Part shown: positions 16,865-26,642 of the stretch, piece after piece
Layout: every line of letters begins with the position of its first letter
How positions within the stretch are numbered: position 1 is the first letter of the stretch
Program-made: the position numbers and the translations under genes
From: Oscillospiraceae bacterium
GTDB taxonomy: Bacteria > Bacillota > Clostridia > Oscillospirales > Oscillospiraceae
Assembly: GCA_017429325.1 (NCBI GenBank)
Contig: JAFRPC010000042.1
Coordinates: 1-48,576, forward strand
Length of the DNA stretch: 48,576 nucleotides
Direction of reading: 5' to 3'
Notes under the pieces: generated by a model
Database searches by the model: none
The model's input: the letters and a program-made list of their open reading frames with translations, nothing else
Told to the model about the DNA's origin: nothing

Positions 16865-18185
16865 ATGGAGTTGCCGCAGAAGCCGTTTCCAGGGTTTCCT
16901 TTATCCGCAGGATGCGCAGGACGCTCTCGTCGATGCGGGCCTCCGGGAGCTCTCCCTTCCGCACGGCATCTAAGACCGCGTCATAGGCCTCCTGCAAATG
17001 CTCGGACACCAGCAGCAAATCGTTCCCCGCCCGGAGGGCCAGGACCGCCGCCTCGCCGGGCGTATAGCGTTGGGTGATGGCCTTCATTGCAAGACCGTCC
17101 GTGATCAGAAGGCCCGGATAGTTTCCCGTCTCGCCCCGCAGGAGGCTCACTAACTGTTCCGACAGGGAGGCGGGCAGCTCGTCCCCGGTGGCCGCCGGGA
17201 CGGCAATGTGCCCCGTCATGATTATCGGAATGCCGGAGGAGGCCGCGTAGAGGAAGGGCTTCAGTTCATCGCTGTCCAGCAGCTCCTCCATCGTGTAGGG
17301 CAGGGACGCAAAGCCCTTGTGCGTGTCCTCCGCCGTGCCGCCGTGGCCGGGGAAGTGCTTCCAGCAGGGCAGGACGCCCTGCTCCAGCAGGCCGTCAGAG
17401 AAGGCCCGGGCCATCTCCGTCACCAGCACCGGGTCGCTGCCGAAGGAGCGGCTGCGCACCACCTGATTCTCCGGATTCGTCAGCACGTCGGCGTCCGGCG
17501 CAAAGTCCACGTTGAAGCCCAGCTCCCGCAGACTGCCTCCGACCTGTGCGCCGAGCTGCCTGGCCCGCTCCACATCGCCGGAGGCGCCGACCTCCGTCAT
17601 CGACGGCACCGGGTCCAGGCCGAAGGCCGGATTCCCGCTGACCCGGGCCACGACGCCGCCCTCCTCGTCCACGCAGAGGAAGAGGGACAGGTCCAGGGCT
17701 TCCCGGCTCATGACCTGCAAGTCAGCACAGAGGGCCTTCGTCTGGGCCGGGTCCTTCAGATTCCCGCCCATCAAGAGGACGCCGCCCACGGGCAGCTGTG
17801 CATAGGCCTCCCGCAGGCTCTCGTCCGCCGCGGTGATGTAATTTGTGGCTCCGGTCAGCGCTTCCGGTGTCACTACAAAGAGCTGCGCCACTTTCCCCTC
17901 CAGGGTCATAGCCGCCAAGCGCTCCGCCAGCGGGTCCGGCGCGTCGGTCGGGTCCGGCTCCGTCATCGGCTCTGTCATCGCTTCCGTTGCTGGCTCCGTT
18001 GTGGGGGAGCTCTGCGCTGCCGGTTCTGTTTGGGTCGTTGTCTCCCCCGATGTCTCCGGGACCGCGGAGGCTTCCCTTGTCGCCGCCAGGGCGGAGGACG
18101 GAGCGGGTTCGGGAGCTTTCCCGCAGCCTGTCAGCAGCCAGAGCGCCAATGCGCAGGCAAGGCAGCGGCACAAGTTTTTGTTCAT
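16863..18185 (-). CDS. GH3-family lipoprotein, beta-N-acetylhexosaminidase (NagZ) type
   Basis: 440 residues from the ATG at 18185 (AGGAGG seven nt upstream). Signal peptide with lipobox LLTGC at about 18-22. A Ser/Thr/Glu-rich stalk follows to about 90. The GH3 N-terminal domain has CVDEEGGVVARV, KHFPGHGGTAEDTHKGF (the NagZ-type His loop) and LLITDGLAMKAI with the nucleophile Asp. No C-terminal GH3 domain is present, as in NagZ. It probably removes N-acetylglucosamine from cell-wall fragments outside the membrane. Its own promoter is at 18235-18263. Confidence 0.9.
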   Translation of the reverse strand: MNKNLCRCLACALALWLLTGCGKAPEPAPSSALAATREASAVPETSGETTTQTEPAAQSSPTTEPATEAMTEPMTEPDPTDAPDPLAERLAAMTLEGKVAQLFVVTPEALTGATNYITAADESLREAYAQLPVGGVLLMGGNLKDPAQTKALCADLQVMSREALDLSLFLCVDEEGGVVARVSGNPAFGLDPVPSMTEVGASGDVERARQLGAQVGGSLRELGFNVDFAPDADVLTNPENQVVRSRSFGSDPVLVTEMARAFSDGLLEQGVLPCWKHFPGHGGTAEDTHKGFASLPYTMEELLDSDELKPFLYAASSGIPIIMTGHIAVPAATGDELPASLSEQLVSLLRGETGNYPGLLITDGLAMKAITQRYTPGEAAVLALRAGNDLLLVSEHLQEAYDAVLDAVRKGELPEARIDESVLRILRIKETLETASAATP

Positions 18186-18234
18186 GACAGTTCCTCCTGC
18201 GTCCTCAACGGGAAAACCTTTGTTTTCTGTACGT

Positions 18235-18263
18235 ATCATACCCGCGCCGCACGGCTCTGTCAA
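18235..18263 (-). promoter_or_regulatory. Sigma-A promoter of the GH3 lipoprotein gene
   Basis: The minus strand reads TTGACA (18263-18258), 17 nt, TATGAT (18240-18235), 49 nt before the start. Confidence 0.8.
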
Positions 18264-18370
18264 TCCCTTCGCTTGAAAATGTCGCCCAGCAGGCGACCAA
18301 AACCTCCGCTATTTGTGGTTTAATCAGTTTGTAAGGAACAACTACAAATCATAAAACGGAGGGTAAATCA

Positions 18371-19045
18371 ATGAAACAGGAACTGAATCAGGAAACGAAC
18401 CGCAGCAGCATCACCGAGCTGGTCTTCATCCTGGACCGCAGCGGCTCTATGGCCGGACTGGAGTCCGACACCATCGGCGGCTTCAACGCGATGCTGGAGA
18501 AGCAGAAGAAGCAGGACGGCCTCTGCTGGGTCTCCACGGTCCTATTCGCCAATGAATCCCAAGTGATCCATGACCGGGTGCGGCTGGAGGAGGTGCGGCC
18601 CATGACGGCGGACGACTACAGCGTGGGCGGCTGCACCGCGCTGATCGACGCCATCGGCGACGCCATCCGCCACATCGGGAACGTCCACAAGTACGCCAGA
18701 CCCGAGGACGTGCCCGCCCACACGGTCTTCGTCATCACCACCGACGGCATGGAGAACGCCAGCCACCGCTACTCCGCCCAGGAGGTCCGGCAGTTGATCT
18801 CCCGGAAGCAGGAGCAGAACGGCTGGGAATTCCTCTTCATCGGCGCGAACATTGACGCCGTGCAGACCGCGGGCCGCTTTGGCATCGCCGAGGACCGGGC
18901 CGTCAACTACCGCGCAGACCGCAAGGGCACCCGGGTCCTCTATGAATGCGTCAGCCGGGCCGTGGGCCGCGTCCGGGCCAACGCCCCCATGGAAGCCAAT
19001 TGGAGCCAGAGCATCCAGGCGGACTACGAGAGCCGGAAGCGCTGA
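18371..19045 (+). CDS. Von Willebrand factor A domain protein
   Basis: 224 residues, almost all one VWA fold. The MIDAS motif is DRSGSM (about 23-28), with the distal Thr in GGCTALIDAI and Asp in VITTDGMENAS. No signal peptide, so it is cytoplasmic. Similar free VWA proteins are often adaptors for metal-dependent protein contacts; the partner is unknown here. GGAGGG lies upstream of the ATG. The leader contains an imperfect 10-bp inverted repeat (ATTTGTGGTT / AACTACAAAT, about 18311-18349) that might be an operator. Confidence 0.88.
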   Translation: MKQELNQETNRSSITELVFILDRSGSMAGLESDTIGGFNAMLEKQKKQDGLCWVSTVLFANESQVIHDRVRLEEVRPMTADDYSVGGCTALIDAIGDAIRHIGNVHKYARPEDVPAHTVFVITTDGMENASHRYSAQEVRQLISRKQEQNGWEFLFIGANIDAVQTAGRFGIAEDRAVNYRADRKGTRVLYECVSRAVGRVRANAPMEANWSQSIQADYESRKR

Positions 19046-19068
19046 GCAGCGCAAATCAACGGGAAGCA

Positions 19069-19105
19069 GAAGCACCATGCCGGTCCGGGATCGGCATGGT
19101 GCTTC
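19069..19105. terminator. Hairpin between convergent VWA and P-loop genes
   Basis: 14-bp perfect stem GAAGCACCATGCCG / CGGCATGGTGCTTC with a 9-nt loop. Neither side has a long T run, so terminator strength is uncertain. Confidence 0.6.
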
Positions 19106-19108
19106 GGC

Positions 19109-20164
19109 TCAGACCTCGGTGAAGAGCTCCCGGCAGAGCAGCTCCGTCTGCCGCGTCACCGCCGCGAAGTCCACGGCGGGGCGGTAGAGCTCCTCCATCA
19201 GGTCGTGGGCCGCCTTAGCCCGGCGCAACCACTCGACGGCCTGGCCCAGCAGCTGGGAGCCGGAGGCGGCCAGGGCCTTTAGGCCCTCCAGGGTCTCCCC
19301 TGTCAGCCCCTCCTCCATAGCGCTGTCCAGGTCCAGCCGGAGCATAGCAAGCCGGGCGCCCCGGAAGTCCGGGCGCAGCCGCACCCAGCCCTGAGAGCGG
19401 GCGGGAGCGATCACCGCCTCCACCGCCTCCGGCTCCAAGGGGTCCATTCCGAGGATCACGTCTTCCCCCGCGGCTGTCAGCCGCGCCGCCAGGCCCTGCA
19501 TCAGCGCACCGCCGACGCCGTAGCCGTCGTAGATGGCCCAGAGCCGCTCCACGCCCGGGTCCAGGGTCATCAGGCCCTTGGGCGTCACGCCGCTGAGGTA
19601 GAGCCGCCGCCCGGTCCCCGGACGTTTGCCCTGGGGCAGCTTCTCGGGCAGGAGCTGCTCCAGGGCTTCCTTCGTCACCGCTTCCAGCCGTGTCCGGCTC
19701 AGCAGGCCGCGCCGGGCCTCCGTCAGGGAGGCCGCCGCCCGCAGACAGCCGTAGACCGGGCCGTAGCAGGCCTGATTGGCCGTCCTTGCCGCCCGGATCG
19801 CAGGCGCCAGAGCCCGCAGCTCCGCCTCCCGATAGCAGCGTCCTAAGTTAACATAATTTTCTCCGCAGCCGCAGAGCGCAGGCTCCACCACATGAGGCGC
19901 CGTACCGTCCACCAGGGCCAGCCCCAGCTCCGGCACCGTCACGCCGTCCAGCGAGTCGGGGTCCGAGGAGCAGAGCACACGCTCCACCGCCCAGCCACAG
20001 TCCTCCGCCCGGGCCGCCAGGGTCTTCATCAGGGTGGATTTCCCGCAGCCCGGGCCGCCCTTCAGAATCAGCAGCCGCCGGATGCGGGGGTCCGTCTGGA
20101 GCGCAGCGTACTCGGAGCGAAAACCCAACGGCGTATTCGCCCCCAAAAAGCAGGTATCAACCAT
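19109..20164 (-). CDS. Tandem P-loop ATPase, PRK06851-like, with degenerate second P-loop
   Basis: 351 residues from the ATG at 20164 (GGAGGG five nt upstream). Walker A GGPGCGKST is at 36-44. The second half repeats the pattern: RRLYLSGVTPKG (187-198) then IYDGYGVGGALMQ (211-223), where the Lys and Ser/Thr of a working P-loop are missing. VLCSSDPDSLDGVTVPELG (63-81) and VILGMDPLEPEAVEAVIAP (236-254) are matching segments of the two halves. The protein is cytoplasmic and of unknown role. The family name comes from memory of the pattern, not a search. Confidence 0.7.
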   Translation of the reverse strand: MVDTCFLGANTPLGFRSEYAALQTDPRIRRLLILKGGPGCGKSTLMKTLAARAEDCGWAVERVLCSSDPDSLDGVTVPELGLALVDGTAPHVVEPALCGCGENYVNLGRCYREAELRALAPAIRAARTANQACYGPVYGCLRAAASLTEARRGLLSRTRLEAVTKEALEQLLPEKLPQGKRPGTGRRLYLSGVTPKGLMTLDPGVERLWAIYDGYGVGGALMQGLAARLTAAGEDVILGMDPLEPEAVEAVIAPARSQGWVRLRPDFRGARLAMLRLDLDSAMEEGLTGETLEGLKALAASGSQLLGQAVEWLRRAKAAHDLMEELYRPAVDFAAVTRQTELLCRELFTEV

Positions 20165-20219
20165 CCGATCCCTCCTTCCTTTCGCATCCAGTCTATGCTC
20201 ATTTGACCGTGGAGGTGAG

Positions 20220-20264
20220 AAAGCGGAAGCAGTCCGGCGCAATAGTCGGAGCTGCTTCCGCTTT
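20220..20264. terminator. Hairpin downstream of the Roco-HD gene
   Basis: Stem AAAGCGGAAGCAG / CTGCTTCCGCTTT (13 bp) with an inner TCCG/CGGA pair. Only a short T tract follows, so it is a moderate terminator. The rest of 20165-20385 has no gene (see findings). Confidence 0.55.
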
Positions 20265-20385
20265 AGAAAAGTTGATTCGGTAGGCGTCAGTGCCTGCATC
20301 GAACCTGTCCCGTATAGTTACGAAGAGGCGCAGGCGCTTGATACGCTCTCCCTACAGCGAGGAGGGTACATTGGTTTTGATTGGC

Positions 20386-23300
20386 TCACTCACCCAGAAA
20401 GGTCTCTGCTGGCGGGTCAAAAAGACCAGCGAGGGCGTCCCTGACCTTTCGCTTTTCCTTTTCATCGTGGATCTCCAGAACGACGGTATTTGCGCCGTCT
20501 CGTATTTGACGACTGAAGATCAGTCTGTCGCTGTCGAAGCTGTACTCTTTCTGAGGCGTGAAGCGCTTGCGGTCCCAGCACTGGAGCTCGTCGCACAGCC
20601 GCAGCAAATAGGCGATGGGCTCTTTTTCCATCGGTATTTTGAACTGACCGATGGTCACACCGCGCTGGTTCAGTTCCTGTACGTCTGTCCGATCGGAAGA
20701 CGCACGTAAGTTGTGAACGGCAATGGCCTCCGCGGCAGACTGCGCATAATTCTGATACAGCTCTTCTTGGGCTAAAAACAAATCGACTTTTTCCTTTTGA
20801 TCGTCAAACATCTCCACATTCCTGCTTTTTTCCAGATAATGACACAGGGCGTCCCGAACATACAGCAGGATGCAGGCACTGACGATCCCATGATCGTATA
20901 AGTTCCGTTCCTCCCTCGGCAGAGCTGTATACTGATAGTACACCTCGATTGGATTTCCGTCATTACTTAAGGTCAGCCGAACGCTTCGACCAAAACCATT
21001 GAAGTGCGACAGCTTTTTCTCCAGATCCAGCATCGTGGCGGCAGTCTTCGGGAGTAGCATACGGTCTCCGCAGTCCTCAGATTGGAAGTTCCCCTCCATA
21101 CCGGCGTCAAAGGTGTCGGGGAAGAGGTGGGTCAGAGGCAGAGAAAGCATCTGTTTGAGCCAATTCAGCATCTGCTGCGCATACTGCCCGTTCCGGCTCT
21201 TGTCCTCGTTTTCAATCAGATAGCCCATATCGTGCCAGAGGGCTGTCATGATCCAGACAGCAAGGAATTCTTTCTCCTGCCAGACCTTCTGAATGGCCTC
21301 GCGCAGCGTCTCGTGGTTCTCATAGAGATAGAGGCCCAGCAGGAAAACCTTGAACATGTGGGTCAGGTGGTCCCGATAATTGGGATAGAAAGCGCCGCCG
21401 TGCTCCAGAGCAGCGAGCAGGTCGTAGTCCGGCGCCAGCCCCAGCTCCGGGTGGGTTGCCCAAATTGTCTTCATCAGCTCCATGGAGCCGACAAAGCGGT
21501 TGGTTTCGTTGGGGTCCAGGGCGTGTTCCAAAGCCTCCCACTCCGGGTCCGCTGTCCCAACGGCGCTATGATAGAGCTTTGATTGCTTTGCCCATTCCAG
21601 GAGATCCCGGTTGACACCCGCGATCCGCATTCGGCCCACCTCCGGTTCTTTTTTCTTTTTGTTTTCCTGTGTTTGCAGTTTTTCTATTTTCGTTCCGTTT
21701 TTTGACAGCCAAGCCGGGAATTCCGGATCATTCAATGAAAGTATCACGAGCCCGAAGGCAATGTCTTCTTGAGAAAGATTTTTTTTATACTCTGAGTGAA
21801 TGAATGTGTCGATATTCATGAATCCCGTTTCCAAGAACTCAGGTAAATATGGTATTGATTTGACTCCATAATGTTTCGCATTCTCTATAATCTCTCGTTT
21901 GTTAGGTGGTAGAATGCTCATCGTATCCGATGTTGCATATTGATAAACTATAGTTGTAATATTCAACAGTCTTGTGCGTTCTACCATGTGCCAAACTCCA
22001 AATACTGCTTTTCCAGTAAATAAGTCAAGTATTTCGCGATTAAATAAAGGATAGAGTAATTCCACAAAGGTAAACATTCTAAATTTACCTTCCTGGTTCA
22101 TCAGAATCGGATCATTGGTCCCATTGGTTCTCTCAAAGGCTTCTATCAGGGCATTCAGCTCATATTCCGCCCTGGATCCCTCTTTTTGGAGGGAGATCGT
22201 CTCCTTCTCTACCACCAGGCGCATTTCCCGGCATTCCTGAAGGATACGATTTCGAGCTTCATGGAAGAGTTCGCAGTAATCGTCCTCCTCCCAGGTCTTC
22301 CGATAAAGGCGAAAGCTCAGCAGCGCCTTTTCCTCATTGGCCTCCACGACCAGCACGGTATCGCCCTCCCGGAAGCGGGCGCCGAAGCGCCACTGCACGC
22401 CGTCCATTTTTTCCCAAAGGGCAATCATCAGCCGGTGGACCAGGCTGGCGGGCAGGTAGGTCAGCTTCATCGTATAGACCAGAGGTTCCCCTAAGTATGT
22501 CGGTTCGATATGCTCCGGTTTCCGAGCGGGCAGCACGCCGGGAATGAACTCCTTATCCTCTTCGGCGCAGTAGTAGGAGTGCTGGAACTTTCGCATGACC
22601 TCCAGGATATACTTGCGCTCTTCCTTTGTCTTATATTTATAGTTTTTGTAGACCGTATTATATTGCTCACTGTTCAGCAATTCATGAAGATCTTCCTTGC
22701 TCAGCCTGGCGCTGGCGGAAAGATGGACCCCATTGTTCAGGATGCGGTAGATGCCGTTGGTCAGCCAGGCTGGGCGCAGCACCTTGTACTCCCGCAGCTC
22801 TTTGGCGCTCATGGGGGCGTTTTTGTGGTAGCTGAAGCAGATGCCCATGTCGTTGAACCAGTCCAGCAGCCACATCCGGATGGATTCGGTGTTGTCATCG
22901 TTTCCACTAAGTCCATGTTTTGCACAGACCCTTCGGTAGTCCTCCAGGGTGATATAGTTCTGCTCCATATCCAGGAGCTCCCGGCGAATATCGGCCCAGC
23001 TCTGCGGCAACTCCAGACGGATGCTGTCCAGCTTCTGCACCTGGCGCAGGATCGCTTTGGTGATACGCTCGTTAAAAACCTCCGGGCTGTCGTTTTTCGC
23101 CGAGAAATAGATAATATCCGTCAGCCGCGGGCAGATGTCCCGCAGCTCCTTCGGGTCGATCTCGCTCTCCGCCGAGGCGTTGTGCCACTGGTTCACCGCC
23201 AGCAGCACCGAGACCTGGTCGGAAAAGCCCGCCACAGTCCGCAGCCATTTTCTGGCCTGGGGCATGGCGGTGCCAGGGTCTCGATTGCTGACCACCACCA

Positions 23301-24450
23301 CATAGCAGGTGCGTTCCGTCAGGAAGCAGCGGTGCATGGACTGCATGATCTCCTGGCCGCCGAAATCCCAGAAGTTGATGCGGGTCCCGTCTCCGCAGTC
23401 GTAGGGCCGGATGTCCACGCCGGGGGTCGAATCCGTTTTGTAATCCTTCTGGACGCCTTTCTGTTCCAGCCGCAGAACCGTGTGGGTCTTTCCCACGCCG
23501 CTCTCCCCCAGAAAAATGACCTTGCCCTCATTGATCTTTACTTTGGTTTGAAAACAATAGGCTTCAAAAATCTTTTCCCGAGGCAGACGGAACAGAGCTT
23601 CCGGCTGCTTGGCAATGGTCGTACCCTCTAATCGCAGTTCCGAAACCCTCGCAATACAGAAGTCCGGGACCCGGTCAAGATGAAGATTTCTCGCCGATAA
23701 CAGATCTAACTTCTGTAGATCCTTCAGCGGCTCCAAATCATGTACCTCTGTGTTGTCCAGCCATAGTCCCTGTAACTTTGTCAATCCGGATAATGGCTTT
23801 AGATCCTTTACTTGGGTATCGGTAAAAGATAGCGCTTCTAATGATCTAATTTCCGCCAGTGGCTGCAGATTCATGACAGATGTACAATTAAAGGTCAACC
23901 CATTGAGCTTCCTCATTTTTGAAAGCGGCTCTAAGCTATCCACTTTAGTTGTTGAAAGATATAAGGTTTCTAAACTCGAAAGACCTGATAAGGGAGATAA
24001 ATCCTGAACTTCGGTATCACTTAGTAAAAGACGTTTTAATACCGTCAAGCCTGAAATGGGCTGCAAATCCTGTACTTGAGATTTGCGTAGATCCAGACTC
24101 GTCAGCGCTGTTAGAGTAGATAGCGGCTGTAAATCTTGTATTTGTGTATCGCGAAGGTCTAGTCTTGTCAATGACGACAAGCCAGACAGAGGATATAGAT
24201 CGGAAACATCAGTAAATGATAAATCCAATTCTCTCAAACACGGGCAGGCTTTCACTAAGTTGGATAAAAACCCGGCCTGCATTATTCTCTTTACTATTCT
24301 ACTTTTTCCTGTTATATATGAAATATTTGAAATGCTTTTCAAAGCGCTAAGTCGCTCTCGCAGTTCAGAGGAGGCCGGTACACCATTCCAGAGCAGTTTT
24401 ATAACCTCATACAATTCCGCAGTCTCCGGCCATTTTTTGTTCTCTTCCAT
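20386..24450 (-). CDS. Roco protein: LRR, Roc GTPase, COR and C-terminal HD phosphohydrolase domain
   Basis: 1,354 residues from the ATG at 24450 (AAAGGAG eight nt upstream; frame upstream is AT-rich and non-coding). Residues about 68-275: nine or so 22-residue leucine-rich repeats of the type LTRLDLRDTQIQDLQPLSTL. Residues 307-475: Roc GTPase with GESGVGKT (315-322), DFGGQE (362-367), NQWH in the G4 place (420-423) and FSAKN (449-453). About 480-760: COR dimerisation region. About 765-935: unassigned, ending in a Lys-rich linker. About 1000-1300: predicted HD domain with RDHLTHMF (1026-1033), ALWHDMGY (1070-1077), LYDHGIVSA (1185-1192 or so) and LCDELQCWDR (1285-1294). No signal or membrane segment. 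Inference: LRR sensing, GTP switch, HD hydrolase output. Substrate and role are unknown. Confidence 0.88.
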   Translation of the reverse strand: MEENKKWPETAELYEVIKLLWNGVPASSELRERLSALKSISNISYITGKSRIVKRIMQAGFLSNLVKACPCLRELDLSFTDVSDLYPLSGLSSLTRLDLRDTQIQDLQPLSTLTALTSLDLRKSQVQDLQPISGLTVLKRLLLSDTEVQDLSPLSGLSSLETLYLSTTKVDSLEPLSKMRKLNGLTFNCTSVMNLQPLAEIRSLEALSFTDTQVKDLKPLSGLTKLQGLWLDNTEVHDLEPLKDLQKLDLLSARNLHLDRVPDFCIARVSELRLEGTTIAKQPEALFRLPREKIFEAYCFQTKVKINEGKVIFLGESGVGKTHTVLRLEQKGVQKDYKTDSTPGVDIRPYDCGDGTRINFWDFGGQEIMQSMHRCFLTERTCYVVVVSNRDPGTAMPQARKWLRTVAGFSDQVSVLLAVNQWHNASAESEIDPKELRDICPRLTDIIYFSAKNDSPEVFNERITKAILRQVQKLDSIRLELPQSWADIRRELLDMEQNYITLEDYRRVCAKHGLSGNDDNTESIRMWLLDWFNDMGICFSYHKNAPMSAKELREYKVLRPAWLTNGIYRILNNGVHLSASARLSKEDLHELLNSEQYNTVYKNYKYKTKEERKYILEVMRKFQHSYYCAEEDKEFIPGVLPARKPEHIEPTYLGEPLVYTMKLTYLPASLVHRLMIALWEKMDGVQWRFGARFREGDTVLVVEANEEKALLSFRLYRKTWEEDDYCELFHEARNRILQECREMRLVVEKETISLQKEGSRAEYELNALIEAFERTNGTNDPILMNQEGKFRMFTFVELLYPLFNREILDLFTGKAVFGVWHMVERTRLLNITTIVYQYATSDTMSILPPNKREIIENAKHYGVKSIPYLPEFLETGFMNIDTFIHSEYKKNLSQEDIAFGLVILSLNDPEFPAWLSKNGTKIEKLQTQENKKKKEPEVGRMRIAGVNRDLLEWAKQSKLYHSAVGTADPEWEALEHALDPNETNRFVGSMELMKTIWATHPELGLAPDYDLLAALEHGGAFYPNYRDHLTHMFKVFLLGLYLYENHETLREAIQKVWQEKEFLAVWIMTALWHDMGYLIENEDKSRNGQYAQQMLNWLKQMLSLPLTHLFPDTFDAGMEGNFQSEDCGDRMLLPKTAATMLDLEKKLSHFNGFGRSVRLTLSNDGNPIEVYYQYTALPREERNLYDHGIVSACILLYVRDALCHYLEKSRNVEMFDDQKEKVDLFLAQEELYQNYAQSAAEAIAVHNLRASSDRTDVQELNQRGVTIGQFKIPMEKEPIAYLLRLCDELQCWDRKRFTPQKEYSFDSDRLIFSRQIRDGANTVVLEIHDEKEKRKVRDALAGLFDPPAETFLGE

Positions 24451-24508
24451 ATGCCGCACTCCTTTCACTCGTGGCGATTCGCGCCGCGTCGTCTTTTGTC
24501 TATTTTTT

Positions 24509-24537
24509 AGAATAACAGAGATTCGATGATTTTTCAA
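24509..24537 (-). promoter_or_regulatory. Sigma-A promoter of the Roco-HD gene
   Basis: The minus strand reads TTGAAA (24537-24532), 17 nt, TATTCT (24514-24509). This leaves a leader of about 50 nt. Confidence 0.7.
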
Positions 24538-24565
24538 CTCTTTTCGTATGATGAAATAGAAGGGA

Positions 24566-24594
24566 TTGACAAATGAAAAAACAACGTATAAAAA
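24566..24594 (+). promoter_or_regulatory. Promoter of the GNAT gene
   Basis: TTGACA (24566-24571) is followed by an AT-rich -10 (TAAAAA at 24589-24594 with 17 nt, or TATAAA at 24587 with 15 nt). It is divergent from the Roco promoter, 28 nt apart. Confidence 0.65.
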
Positions 24595-24630
24595 ATAACT
24601 ATTCACATCCGCTGCGACAGGAGATTGCTT

Positions 24631-25101
24631 ATGTTCGTACCAGTCGATCGATCGAATCTTTGGCAGGCTGCTGGGATACACTCTGTTTCCTGGCAGGCGT
24701 CTCACCGGGCCTTTTGCGCTCCGGACTTTATCGCTCTGCACACGCCAGAGCGGCAGGAGGCTTACGTGCGTCGTAAAATGAGTGAAGGAAGCCGCTTATA
24801 TCTGCTGGTGGAGAAAAAGCCCGTCGGGATCGTGTCGGTCCGCGGCAGCCTGATCGAAGACCTCTACGTGCTCCCGGCGGAGCAGCGGAAGGGCTACGGA
24901 ACGAGGCTGCTGGAATTCGCCGTGGGACAATGCTCTGGCCTCCCGACGCTTTGGATCCTGGAAAACAACATAGGCGCGGAACGGCTGTACCGCAGGCTGG
25001 GCTTTCAGCGAACTGGGCGGGTCCATACCGTCACCGACGGTCTCACGGAGATAGAGCTTGCGTACCGGCGGGAGGACGCTGGGATGGGAAACTGCGTTTA
25101 A
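24631..25101 (+). CDS. GNAT-family N-acetyltransferase
   Basis: 156 residues from the ATG at 24631 (ACAGGAG seven nt upstream). The acetyl-CoA loop is LYVLPAEQRKGYGTRLLEFA (Q/RxxGxG/A form), followed by LWILENNIGAERLYRRLGF, the typical beta5-alpha4 segment. Acceptor unknown; most such proteins acetylate small molecules or protein N-termini. It is transcribed away from the Roco-HD gene from a shared 180-bp intergenic region. That suggests, but does not prove, a link. A hairpin that also terminates tRNA-Ala on the other strand lies after it. Confidence 0.88.
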   Translation: MFVPVDRSNLWQAAGIHSVSWQASHRAFCAPDFIALHTPERQEAYVRRKMSEGSRLYLLVEKKPVGIVSVRGSLIEDLYVLPAEQRKGYGTRLLEFAVGQCSGLPTLWILENNIGAERLYRRLGFQRTGRVHTVTDGLTEIELAYRREDAGMGNCV

Positions 25102-25115
25102 GGCAGAATAAACAA

Positions 25116-25161
25116 TTATCTCCACCAAGAAAAGGGACATCCTTTCGGATGTCCCTTTTCT

Positions 25162-25173
<12 letters not shown>
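25116..25173 (-). terminator. 27-bp perfect inverted repeat overlapping the tRNA-Ala 3' end
   Basis: Arms 25116-25142 and 25147-25173 are perfectly complementary with a 4-nt loop (TTTC). The core AAAAGGGACATCC-gaaa-GGATGTCCCTTTT is a good terminator on either strand. The outer 12 bp of the right arm are the last 12 nt of the tRNA gene. Confidence 0.8.
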
Positions 25174-25237
<64 letters not shown>

Positions 25238-25276
25238 AAGTGATCGGGAAACGGGCGTTTCCCTCACAGCAACGGT

Positions 25277-25360: not shown

Positions 25361-25441
25361 CAGCTCATCCGCCCCAGTGTGCGCACTGGGGCACCCTCCC
25401 TTCAAGGGGAAGGCTTTGGGCCGGCAGATTGCCGGCGCTAC
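25361..25441. repeat. Composite repeat (double hairpin plus GTAG hairpin) at the ispF 3' end
   Basis: 25361-25413 contains GCCCCAGTG-tg-CGCACTGGGGC and CCTCCCTT-caa-GGGGAAGG. 25418-25441 is a REP hairpin GCCGGCAGATTGCCGGC with its GTAG foot at 25441-25438 on the minus strand. The TAG of that foot is the ispF stop codon. Confidence 0.8.
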
Positions 25442-25917
25442 AGGGTAGTCCCTTCCAGGAGGCAGACTGCGTGGCAGGCGATGCCCTCTCCCCTGCCGGT
25501 GAAGCCCAGGCGTTCTTCCGTGGTGGCCTTGACGTTGATACGGGAGGCTTCCACGGCGAGGGTGGCGGCCAGGTTTTCCCGCATCTGCGGGATGTGCGGG
25601 GCCAGCTTCGGGGCCTGAGCGATGACCGTCACGTCGATGTTCCCCACCCGGAAGCCCTTCTCCTTCAGCAGGTTCCGGACGTAGGCCAGGAGCTTCTGGC
25701 TGTCAATGCCCTTGTAGGCGGGGTCCGTGTCCGGGAAGTGCCGCCCGATGTCCCCAAGGCCTGCGGCTCCCAGCAGGGCGTCCATGACCGCGTGGGTCAG
25801 CACGTCGGCGTCGGAGTGACCGTCGAGGCCCAGGGGGTATTCGAGCTTCACGCCGCCTAAGATCAGGTCCCGACCGGGGACCAGGCGGTGTACGTCGTAG
25901 CCGTGCCCGATCCTCAT
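25438..25917 (-). CDS. ispF: 2-C-methyl-D-erythritol 2,4-cyclodiphosphate synthase
   Basis: 159 residues, standard length, from the ATG at 25917. [12 protein letters not shown] (metal-binding Asp8 and His10), [19 protein letters not shown], and the C-terminal [22 protein letters not shown] are diagnostic. It converts CDP-ME 2-phosphate to the cyclodiphosphate in the MEP isoprenoid pathway, working as a trimer in the cytoplasm. Its start overlaps the ispD stop (ATGA). Its stop TAG is provided by a REP hairpin foot. Confidence 0.95.
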
Positions 25918-26642
25918 GTTGTCTGCCTCCGCTTCAGCAGGGCCTCTGCCAGGATCAGGTCGGTGGGGGTCGTCACCTTCAGATTTTCGTCGCTGCCGGG
26001 GGTGATGACCACGTTGACGCCGTACTGCTCCGCAGCGGAGCAGTCGTCGGTCAGCTCCAGCTTTTTGGCAATAGCCTGGTTCAGGGCGGCCCGATAGAGG
26101 TCCAGCGCAAAGACCTGGGGCGTCTGCACGGCATAGAGGCCGCTGCGGTCCGGGGTGGACTCCACCACGCCGCCGTGGACGACCTTGACGGTGTCCTTGA
26201 CGGGGACGGCGGGGGCGGCGGCATTGAACTTCGCGGCCTTGCGGACCGCGTCGTGGATGACCTTCTGGGACACCAGGGGACGGGCACCGTCGTGGATGGC
26301 CACAAAGCCGCACTGCTTGGAGACCTGGTCCAGCCCGGCCCGGACGGAATCCGCCCGGGTCTCGCCGCCCTTGCAGATCTTTGTCACCTTGGAGAGCTTC
26401 TTTTCGACGCAGAGCTCGCCCAGGGGCTGGAGCAGCTCGTCCCGCGTGACAAGCACGATCTCCTGGATGTCCTCACTCTGCTGAAAGGCCTGGAGCGTAT
26501 GGACGATCAGCGGCTCGCCGCAGAGCTCGGCCATAATCTTATCCGTGCCCTCCATGCGAGTCGCCTTCCCGGCTGCCACCACCACAGCCGCGCACTTGGC
26601 ACCGCGGGTAGAGATTTTTCTCAATACAGAAGTAACGCTCAT
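25914..26642 (-). CDS. ispD: 2-C-methyl-D-erythritol 4-phosphate cytidylyltransferase
   Basis: 242 residues. The CTP-binding loop is [16 protein letters not shown] (the usual GxGxRM/K loop, here AAGKATRM). [19 protein letters not shown] and [10 protein letters not shown] are the other family motifs. It makes CDP-ME from MEP and CTP, the step two before IspF. The residues before about 15 ([14 protein letters not shown]) are longer than usual, but GAGGAGG is well placed before this ATG. A 214-bp REP array separates it from murD. Confidence 0.94.

Follow-up and report, generated by a model that had tools for sequence, protein, structure and literature searches.

A bacterial Roco protein with a C-terminal HD-type domain, a candidate single-gene immune receptor

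Introduction

The Roco switch is related to the Parkinson's protein LRRK2. The solved protein closest to the subject of this study is CtRoco of Chlorobium tepidum (PDB 6hlu), whose leucine-rich repeats (LRR) swing by approximately 135 degrees in the GTP-gamma-S state (PMC11052575; papers given by PMC number are cited here from extracts). Prokaryotic Rocos serve as models of the LRRK2 switch although very little is known of their own functions, and all of those identified by 2019 were described in a review of that year as LRR-Roc-COR only (PMC6337361). Here we describe a protein that departs from that group: a single gene in the window, i.e. the whole stretch of 48,576 nucleotides that was analysed (contig JAFRPC010000042.1 of the Oscillospiraceae bacterium assembly GCA_017429325.1), encodes an LRR-Roc-COR protein in which an HD-type domain follows.

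The layout is like that of LRRK2 and the Roco kinases, where the Roc-COR switch likewise lies between LRR and a C-terminal enzyme domain (PMC6337361), but the output is different, an HD-type domain standing where those proteins have a protein kinase. A first-pass annotation, made from the letters of the DNA, had described many Rocos as carrying C-terminal kinases, which holds for eukaryotic Rocos and not for the prokaryotic ones known by 2019 (PMC6337361). One HD-fold hydrolase is known as an anti-phage effector: that of Clover defence, CloA, is an HD dGTPase which, going by its description, has an HD-type enzyme in common with the window protein but is without Roco or LRR (PMC12265719). HD is also listed among possible enzymatic effector domains where TRADD-N proteins of the NCOA6 clade are discussed (PMC8195603). 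Among the papers listed in our limited literature search (Roco, HD, RyR, Thoeris, Lamassu), none dealt with a bacterial Roco that carries HD or with a Roco that defends against phages, and in the extracts of PMC7159879 and PMC8195603 Roco is mentioned in the reference lists only. What is new in the window protein is its architecture; the kind of protein is known.

We read it as a single-gene immune receptor, likely directed against phages, and give this reading a probability of roughly 0.6; as to an immune role as such, we lean towards it. With an effector-type domain fused to it, a Roco has a named output open to assay, which makes Roco function testable, and the finding points to an HD family that recurs in Lamassu-like, DRT1-type and TIR loci. 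If the reading is true, the LRRK2-type switch would take a place among bacterial immune switches, and prokaryotic Rocos, and so the LRRK2 switch lineage, would gain a physiological immune role.

Architecture of the protein

The open reading frame (ORF) is intact over 1,354 codons, running on the minus strand from an ATG at 24450 to a stop codon that ends at 20386; the plus-strand reading of the same positions is full of stops. Coordinates and length had been given correctly at first pass, with the strand left unstated. The following features were assigned:

20386..24450, minus strand: whole gene of the 1,354-residue LRR-Roc-COR-HD protein (ORF including stop)
24459..24466, minus strand: ribosome-binding-site-like GAAAGGAG, 8 nt ahead of the ATG (read from sequence)
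23710..24237, minus strand: leucine-rich repeats, residues 72-247, eight regular 22-residue units (sequence reading; five stretches matched by Pfam LRR_4)
23026..23523, minus strand: Roc GTPase domain, residues 310-475, its end set by us (Pfam and alignment with solved Rocos)
22231..23025, minus strand: COR, residues 476-740, its limits set by us, COR-A strong and COR-B weak (Pfam, alignment)
21451..22230, minus strand: linker, residues 741-1000, approximately 260 residues (36% identity to the paralogue over 741-985)
20521..21423, minus strand: HD-type domain, residues 1010-1310, with candidate ligands H1028, H1073-D1074, H1187, H1246 and D1287 (profile and alignment)

A longer, GTG-started ORF reaching to 24741 was rejected, as no support for it was seen and a good ribosome-binding site precedes the ATG at 24450.

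The LRR-Roc-COR-HD architecture is clear, and the domain order first proposed stands. The LRR array is present, with eight regular repeats plus degenerate ends in place of the 'about nine' originally counted. Roc is matched by PF08477 with 66 bits at residues 310-421 (cut-off 27); its P-loop GESGVGKT (G1, residues 315-322) and DFGGQE (G3, residues 362-367) are intact, as had been noted before, and its G4 is altered. COR lies directly after Roc, where the first reading had placed it, with 90.8 bits for COR-A at residues 482-637 (cut-off 35.3) and 21.8 bits for COR-B, below the cut-off of 27. The PDB chain closest to the LRR-Roc-COR part is 6hlu (E 7.4e-89, best stretch residues 71-697), which shares the LRR-Roc-COR order, the P-loop and DFGGQE. 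P-loop and DFGGQE are also held in common with 4wnr (E 5.6e-40), presumably the Roco of Methanosarcina barkeri, a chain that comprises Roc and part of COR. The matched chains of both differ from the window protein in being without an HD domain and in having NKID as G4 instead of NQWH. In the alignment with solved Roco proteins, R390 corresponds to an arginine of 3dpu which, from chain length and residue numbering, we take to be the catalytic R543 of CtRoco.

The C-terminal HD-type domain

Residues 765-1354 had no match among the models of Pfam (E up to 5) or NCBIfam (E up to 1), and E 0.38 was the best value reached by any PDB sequence, so the HD call of the first-pass annotation had been based on motifs alone. 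Single-sequence scans of the genome and viral collections with the C-terminus gave no relative, and a PDB profile search gave nothing; an alignment of ten sequences, in contrast, found at least 188 relatives in the genome collection, the best 80 of which were kept, and two more in viral contigs.

Residues 1016-1298 match a profile of 55 relatives, built with the window sequence excluded, at 120.7 bits; the best of 500 shuffled C-termini reached 8.4 bits. H1028, H1031, H1073, D1074, D1186, H1187, H1246, D1287 and E1288 are kept in 55/55 relatives, a conservation that is partly built in over HDxGY and CDELQxW, the patterns with which the relatives were fetched, while H1028, H1031, D1186, H1187 and H1246 lie outside them. 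Conservation of the ligands among homologues had been set beforehand as one of two tests on which the HD reading should fall or survive, and all those then named (H1028, H1073-D1074, H1187 and D1287) proved invariant; H1246, equally invariant, had been missed. Furthermore, of the 56 aligned members, 15 match Pfam HD (PF01966) at E<=0.1 (best 0.0033) and two match the next family. The window sequence itself has no Pfam HD match; the HD part of its paralogue has one (E 0.0068), and two Pfam HD scores, 13.7 and 17.1 bits, are both below the cut-off of 22. No non-HD family turned up for the C-terminus in the sequence comparisons. A kinase or TIR reading of it was rejected, as the Pfam scan of the window protein gave no kinase, TIR or RyR match. 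Profile, ligand pattern and PF01966 matches together bear out the HD reading at the level of sequence: the C-terminus very likely belongs to the HD superfamily, and the domain is probably a metal-dependent enzyme.

Two-metal HD enzymes, among them Cas3 nucleases and HD-GYP phosphodiesterases, have the ligand set H-HD-H-H-D. With H1246 included, the candidate ligands form this set, so that a phosphodiesterase or nuclease is as possible as a (d)NTP ((deoxy)nucleoside triphosphate) hydrolase. One family member has a weak Cas3-HD match (L035, E 0.002). No good name for the family came from the models scanned, which were those of Pfam (56 members), PADLOC (11 members) and NCBIfam (window protein only).

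The HD family in the neighbourhood of defence-type genes

When the 5,154 ORFs in 92 loci were searched with the HD profile, 101 ORFs in 91 loci matched at E<=1e-8, three of these ORFs being repeats (the contigs of L049 and L053 equal those of L020 and L024 in length). More than half of them (56/101) are matched by a RyR-containing query; of two such HD-RyR proteins given whole to Pfam, that of L023 passes the RyR cut-off and that of L019 falls below it. Roc and COR queries match only L017, the locus of the paralogue, and the HD-less L018, and the linker query (residues 766-985) matches L017 alone.

A TIR gene lies within two genes of the HD gene and on the same strand in 27/89 loci (L049, L053 and L018 left out). 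The share of TIR genes is 31/224 among near same-strand genes and 6/775 among farther genes (Fisher odds 20.6, p 9e-16), with 4/98 among near opposite-strand genes; as the TIR profile derives from matches to a single neighbour of this type, there is a bias in the TIRs detected, but not in their positions. TIR_2 was matched by 19 of 64 neighbours chosen out of 122. In L023 (3980-7602, minus strand) and L025 (7019-10644, plus strand) an HD-RyR gene adjoins a TIR-LRR gene in a Thoeris-like layout; PADLOC gave no match for the HD-RyR protein of L023 and weak TIR-type matches only for its partner. These pairs share the HD family with the window protein but carry the LRR in the partner, and have a TIR enzyme and RyR instead of Roc-COR in cis.

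In three loci, the HD gene is directly downstream of an LmuB-like SMC gene (L022, L072 and L088; PADLOC LmuB E 8e-38, 5.5e-38 and 5.6e-36). The HD family is again the same, but these Lamassu-like operons hold it as a separate gene beside the SMC ATPase, in contrast to the Roco fusion. They are sets of three genes, for a partner of approximately 600 residues, the LmuB-like SMC ATPase and the HD protein (L022:6094-12558, minus; L072:4407-11068, plus; L088:4598-11005, plus), and both SMC proteins scanned were matched by Pfam MComp1, one of them just below the cut-off. A separate HD gene is likewise found beside a reverse transcriptase in loci of DRT type 1: in L078 (5871-11014, plus strand) it likely starts approximately 35 bases after a Drt1a reverse transcriptase (1,419 bits), and in L021 (6509-11782) it and the reverse transcriptase, which shares 47% identity with the one in L078, are divergent.

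A tree of 96 HD domains pairs the window domain with that of its paralogue (support 100/99) and places both in a set of 12 rows, none with a detected RyR, to which the LmuB- and reverse transcriptase-associated proteins belong (98/91), a hint that the window HD groups with the RyR-less Lamassu/DRT set. Taken together, we read the HD family as a portable immune effector which, in the window protein, appears wired directly to a Roco switch. The suggestion made at first pass that sensor, switch and hydrolase form the layout of an immune or stress system thereby gains real but indirect support from the LmuB-like, DRT1-type and TIR genes that adjoin family members; the function itself had been put forward there by analogy of layout.

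The same neighbours could be read in the opposite sense, with the HD domain destroying an immune nucleotide signal made elsewhere and so restraining immunity rather than executing it. The known products of TIR proteins, which family HD proteins adjoin, are nucleotides. Phage RyR proteins degrade or sequester such signals, namely cyclic ADP-ribose (cADPR; PMC13232231). Around the window copy itself, the scan of ten ORFs brought up no TIR gene. Beside LmuB and DRT1, moreover, no nucleotide signal of this type is expected, and we consider such an off-switch decidedly unlikely.

Side by side HD-RyR genes occur in eight Methanobrevibacter loci (L062, L071, L079, L089, L092, L098, L104 and L106), with a kinase-HSP70 protein and a calcineurin-like phosphoesterase upstream of the pair in L089. 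In L024 (6119-9309, minus strand) there is a second, partly identical HD ORF that diverges in its last third, as if partially duplicated.

Paralogue, genomic setting and rarity of the fusion

The genome that contains the window encodes two LRR-Roc-COR-HD proteins and one LRR-Roc-COR protein. The second fusion (L017) is on another contig, has the same architecture, is open over its full length and keeps all candidate ligands. Identity between the two copies is 61% in Roc, 45% in COR, 36% in the linker and 43% in HD, and their LRR lengths differ (134/200 LRR positions aligned). Beside the well-kept Roc, this difference would suit a sensor that varies on a switch that stays the same. The third Roco (L018:1604-4552, plus strand) is without HD and has NCWD as G4.

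The Roco gene of the window has a G+C content (GC) of 0.503, and 0.609 at third codon positions (GC3), against 0.62-0.69 and 0.68-0.90 in five other window genes; this low GC suggests the recent acquisition of a single gene. The paralogue (0.615) does not deviate in the same comparison; it stands tail to tail with a gene read by eye as EF-Tu. The window copy stands alone, with tRNA-Ala and a GNAT-like ORF (by eye) on one side and a conserved gene of the genus on the other. The flanking genes were found in 22/23 and 19/23 genomes of the genus and the HD part of the Roco in 1/23, its own genome being counted in each case. Because of this difference in distribution, the downstream gene at 19109-20299 (22/23) was rejected as an operon partner. 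Exact direct repeats 12 to 30 bases long, as looked for in a tRNA-linked island, are absent between the surroundings of the tRNA-Ala gene (25101-25240) and 18001-25000. When an empty site was looked for, the gene at 25438-26313 and the downstream gene proved to lie on separate contigs in 17/17 relatives where both were found. A perfect 27-base inverted repeat at 25116-25173 reaches into the 3' end of the tRNA-Ala gene.

Such a position between tRNA and housekeeping genes would also suit a protein of cellular stress or metabolic signalling, in which LRR-Roc-COR senses an internal cue and HD degrades a second messenger (ppGpp or a cyclic dinucleotide) with no part in phage defence. H-HD-H-H-D is the ligand set of known phosphodiesterases (HD-GYP) as well, and two family members lie near GGDEF genes (L034 and L046). 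However, the TIR, LmuB and DRT1 neighbours of the family speak against it, and patchy presence in the genus together with low GC misfits a core role, which makes this explanation unlikely in our view, if worth keeping in mind.

COR-A was found in 9/400 genomes of the bacterial family, 2/398 of the phylum (one below the cut-off) and 3/315 of the order, own genome counted in each of these overlapping sets. The HD profile matches none of the eight other family Rocos, seven of which are informative, L128 being cut by a contig end. It matches 6/315 order genomes (own counted), the other five in frames of 201 to 779 residues and thus too short for a Roco-HD fusion. Searches with the C-terminus gave, besides the own genome, short distant matches in one of 98 relatives and seven of 398 phylum genomes. 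In the material seen, which comprised the family Rocos, the genomes searched with the C-terminus, the order genomes matched by the HD profile and the best 80 of the at least 188 relatives, the Roco-HD fusion occurs in its own genome alone; it may exist elsewhere too, because only those best 80 were seen and one family Roco is cut by a contig end. L072 HD has no match in plasmids, and the HD-RyR protein of L023 matched one phage record (26% identity).

Confinement to one genome, in an assembly 73% complete, raises the question of whether the fusion is a decayed or artefactual product without function, i.e. an assembly joint or an HD remnant. Two separate copies with the same domain order, fully open and with all candidate ligands kept at 43% HD identity, argue against this, as do the genes on either side of the window copy, which are those of most genus genomes; we regard an artefact as very improbable.

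A model for the window protein and its weight

In the immune receptor that we propose, the LRR horseshoe would keep the protein closed and recognise a sign of infection. By analogy with CtRoco, ligand binding in the LRR would let Roc-COR take a GTP-bound, opened state, which would free or activate the C-terminal HD domain. The latter might then damage nucleic acid or the nucleotide pool, so that phage growth or the cell itself is stopped. In its relatives, the same effector family would stand beside other switches, namely the SMC ATPase of Lamassu, the DRT1 reverse transcriptase, and a TIR enzyme with RyR as signal-binding domain. In broader terms, bacterial Rocos might include NLR-like one-protein immune receptors, with the LRR as sensor, Roc-COR as switch and, as the part that kills, an HD effector which four or more unrelated immune switches have in common (Roco, SMC/Lamassu, DRT1, and TIR with RyR), a proposition on which we consider the odds to be even.

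Several observations weigh against the immune receptor. In Roc, both copies carry NQWH as G4 (residues 420-423 of the window protein) instead of NKxD, and the paralogue reads DFGCQE and has R390 replaced by lysine; ordinary GTP switching can therefore not be assumed. PADLOC gave, for the window protein, a weak P-loop match alone (DrmD, E 0.028, residues 310-339). The window HD is 18-25% identical to relatives other than its paralogue (alignment A3) and sits on a long branch, for which the tree program warns of long branches meeting, so that its place in the tree is unsure. It had no match in 72,556 plasmids or 50,697 phages. No TIR lies within two same-strand genes in 62/89 loci, some of which are cut by contig ends, and several neighbours of family members are plainly non-defence (glutamate dehydrogenase, flagellin, EAL/GGDEF proteins, TldD). 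Around the window copy, none of the ten ORFs scanned was recognised as a defence gene, and they gave neither an SMC match, as expected for Lamassu, nor a TIR match, as for Thoeris; around the paralogue, the neighbourhood was read on the downstream side.

We count for the immune receptor another Roco of the same bacterial family, which is fused to a NACHT module. This protein of 3,382 residues (L126:2026-12171, plus strand) carries a NACHT NTPase and pentapeptide repeats after its Roc-COR, and the stretch between Roc-COR and the NACHT module looks restriction-enzyme-like by eye.

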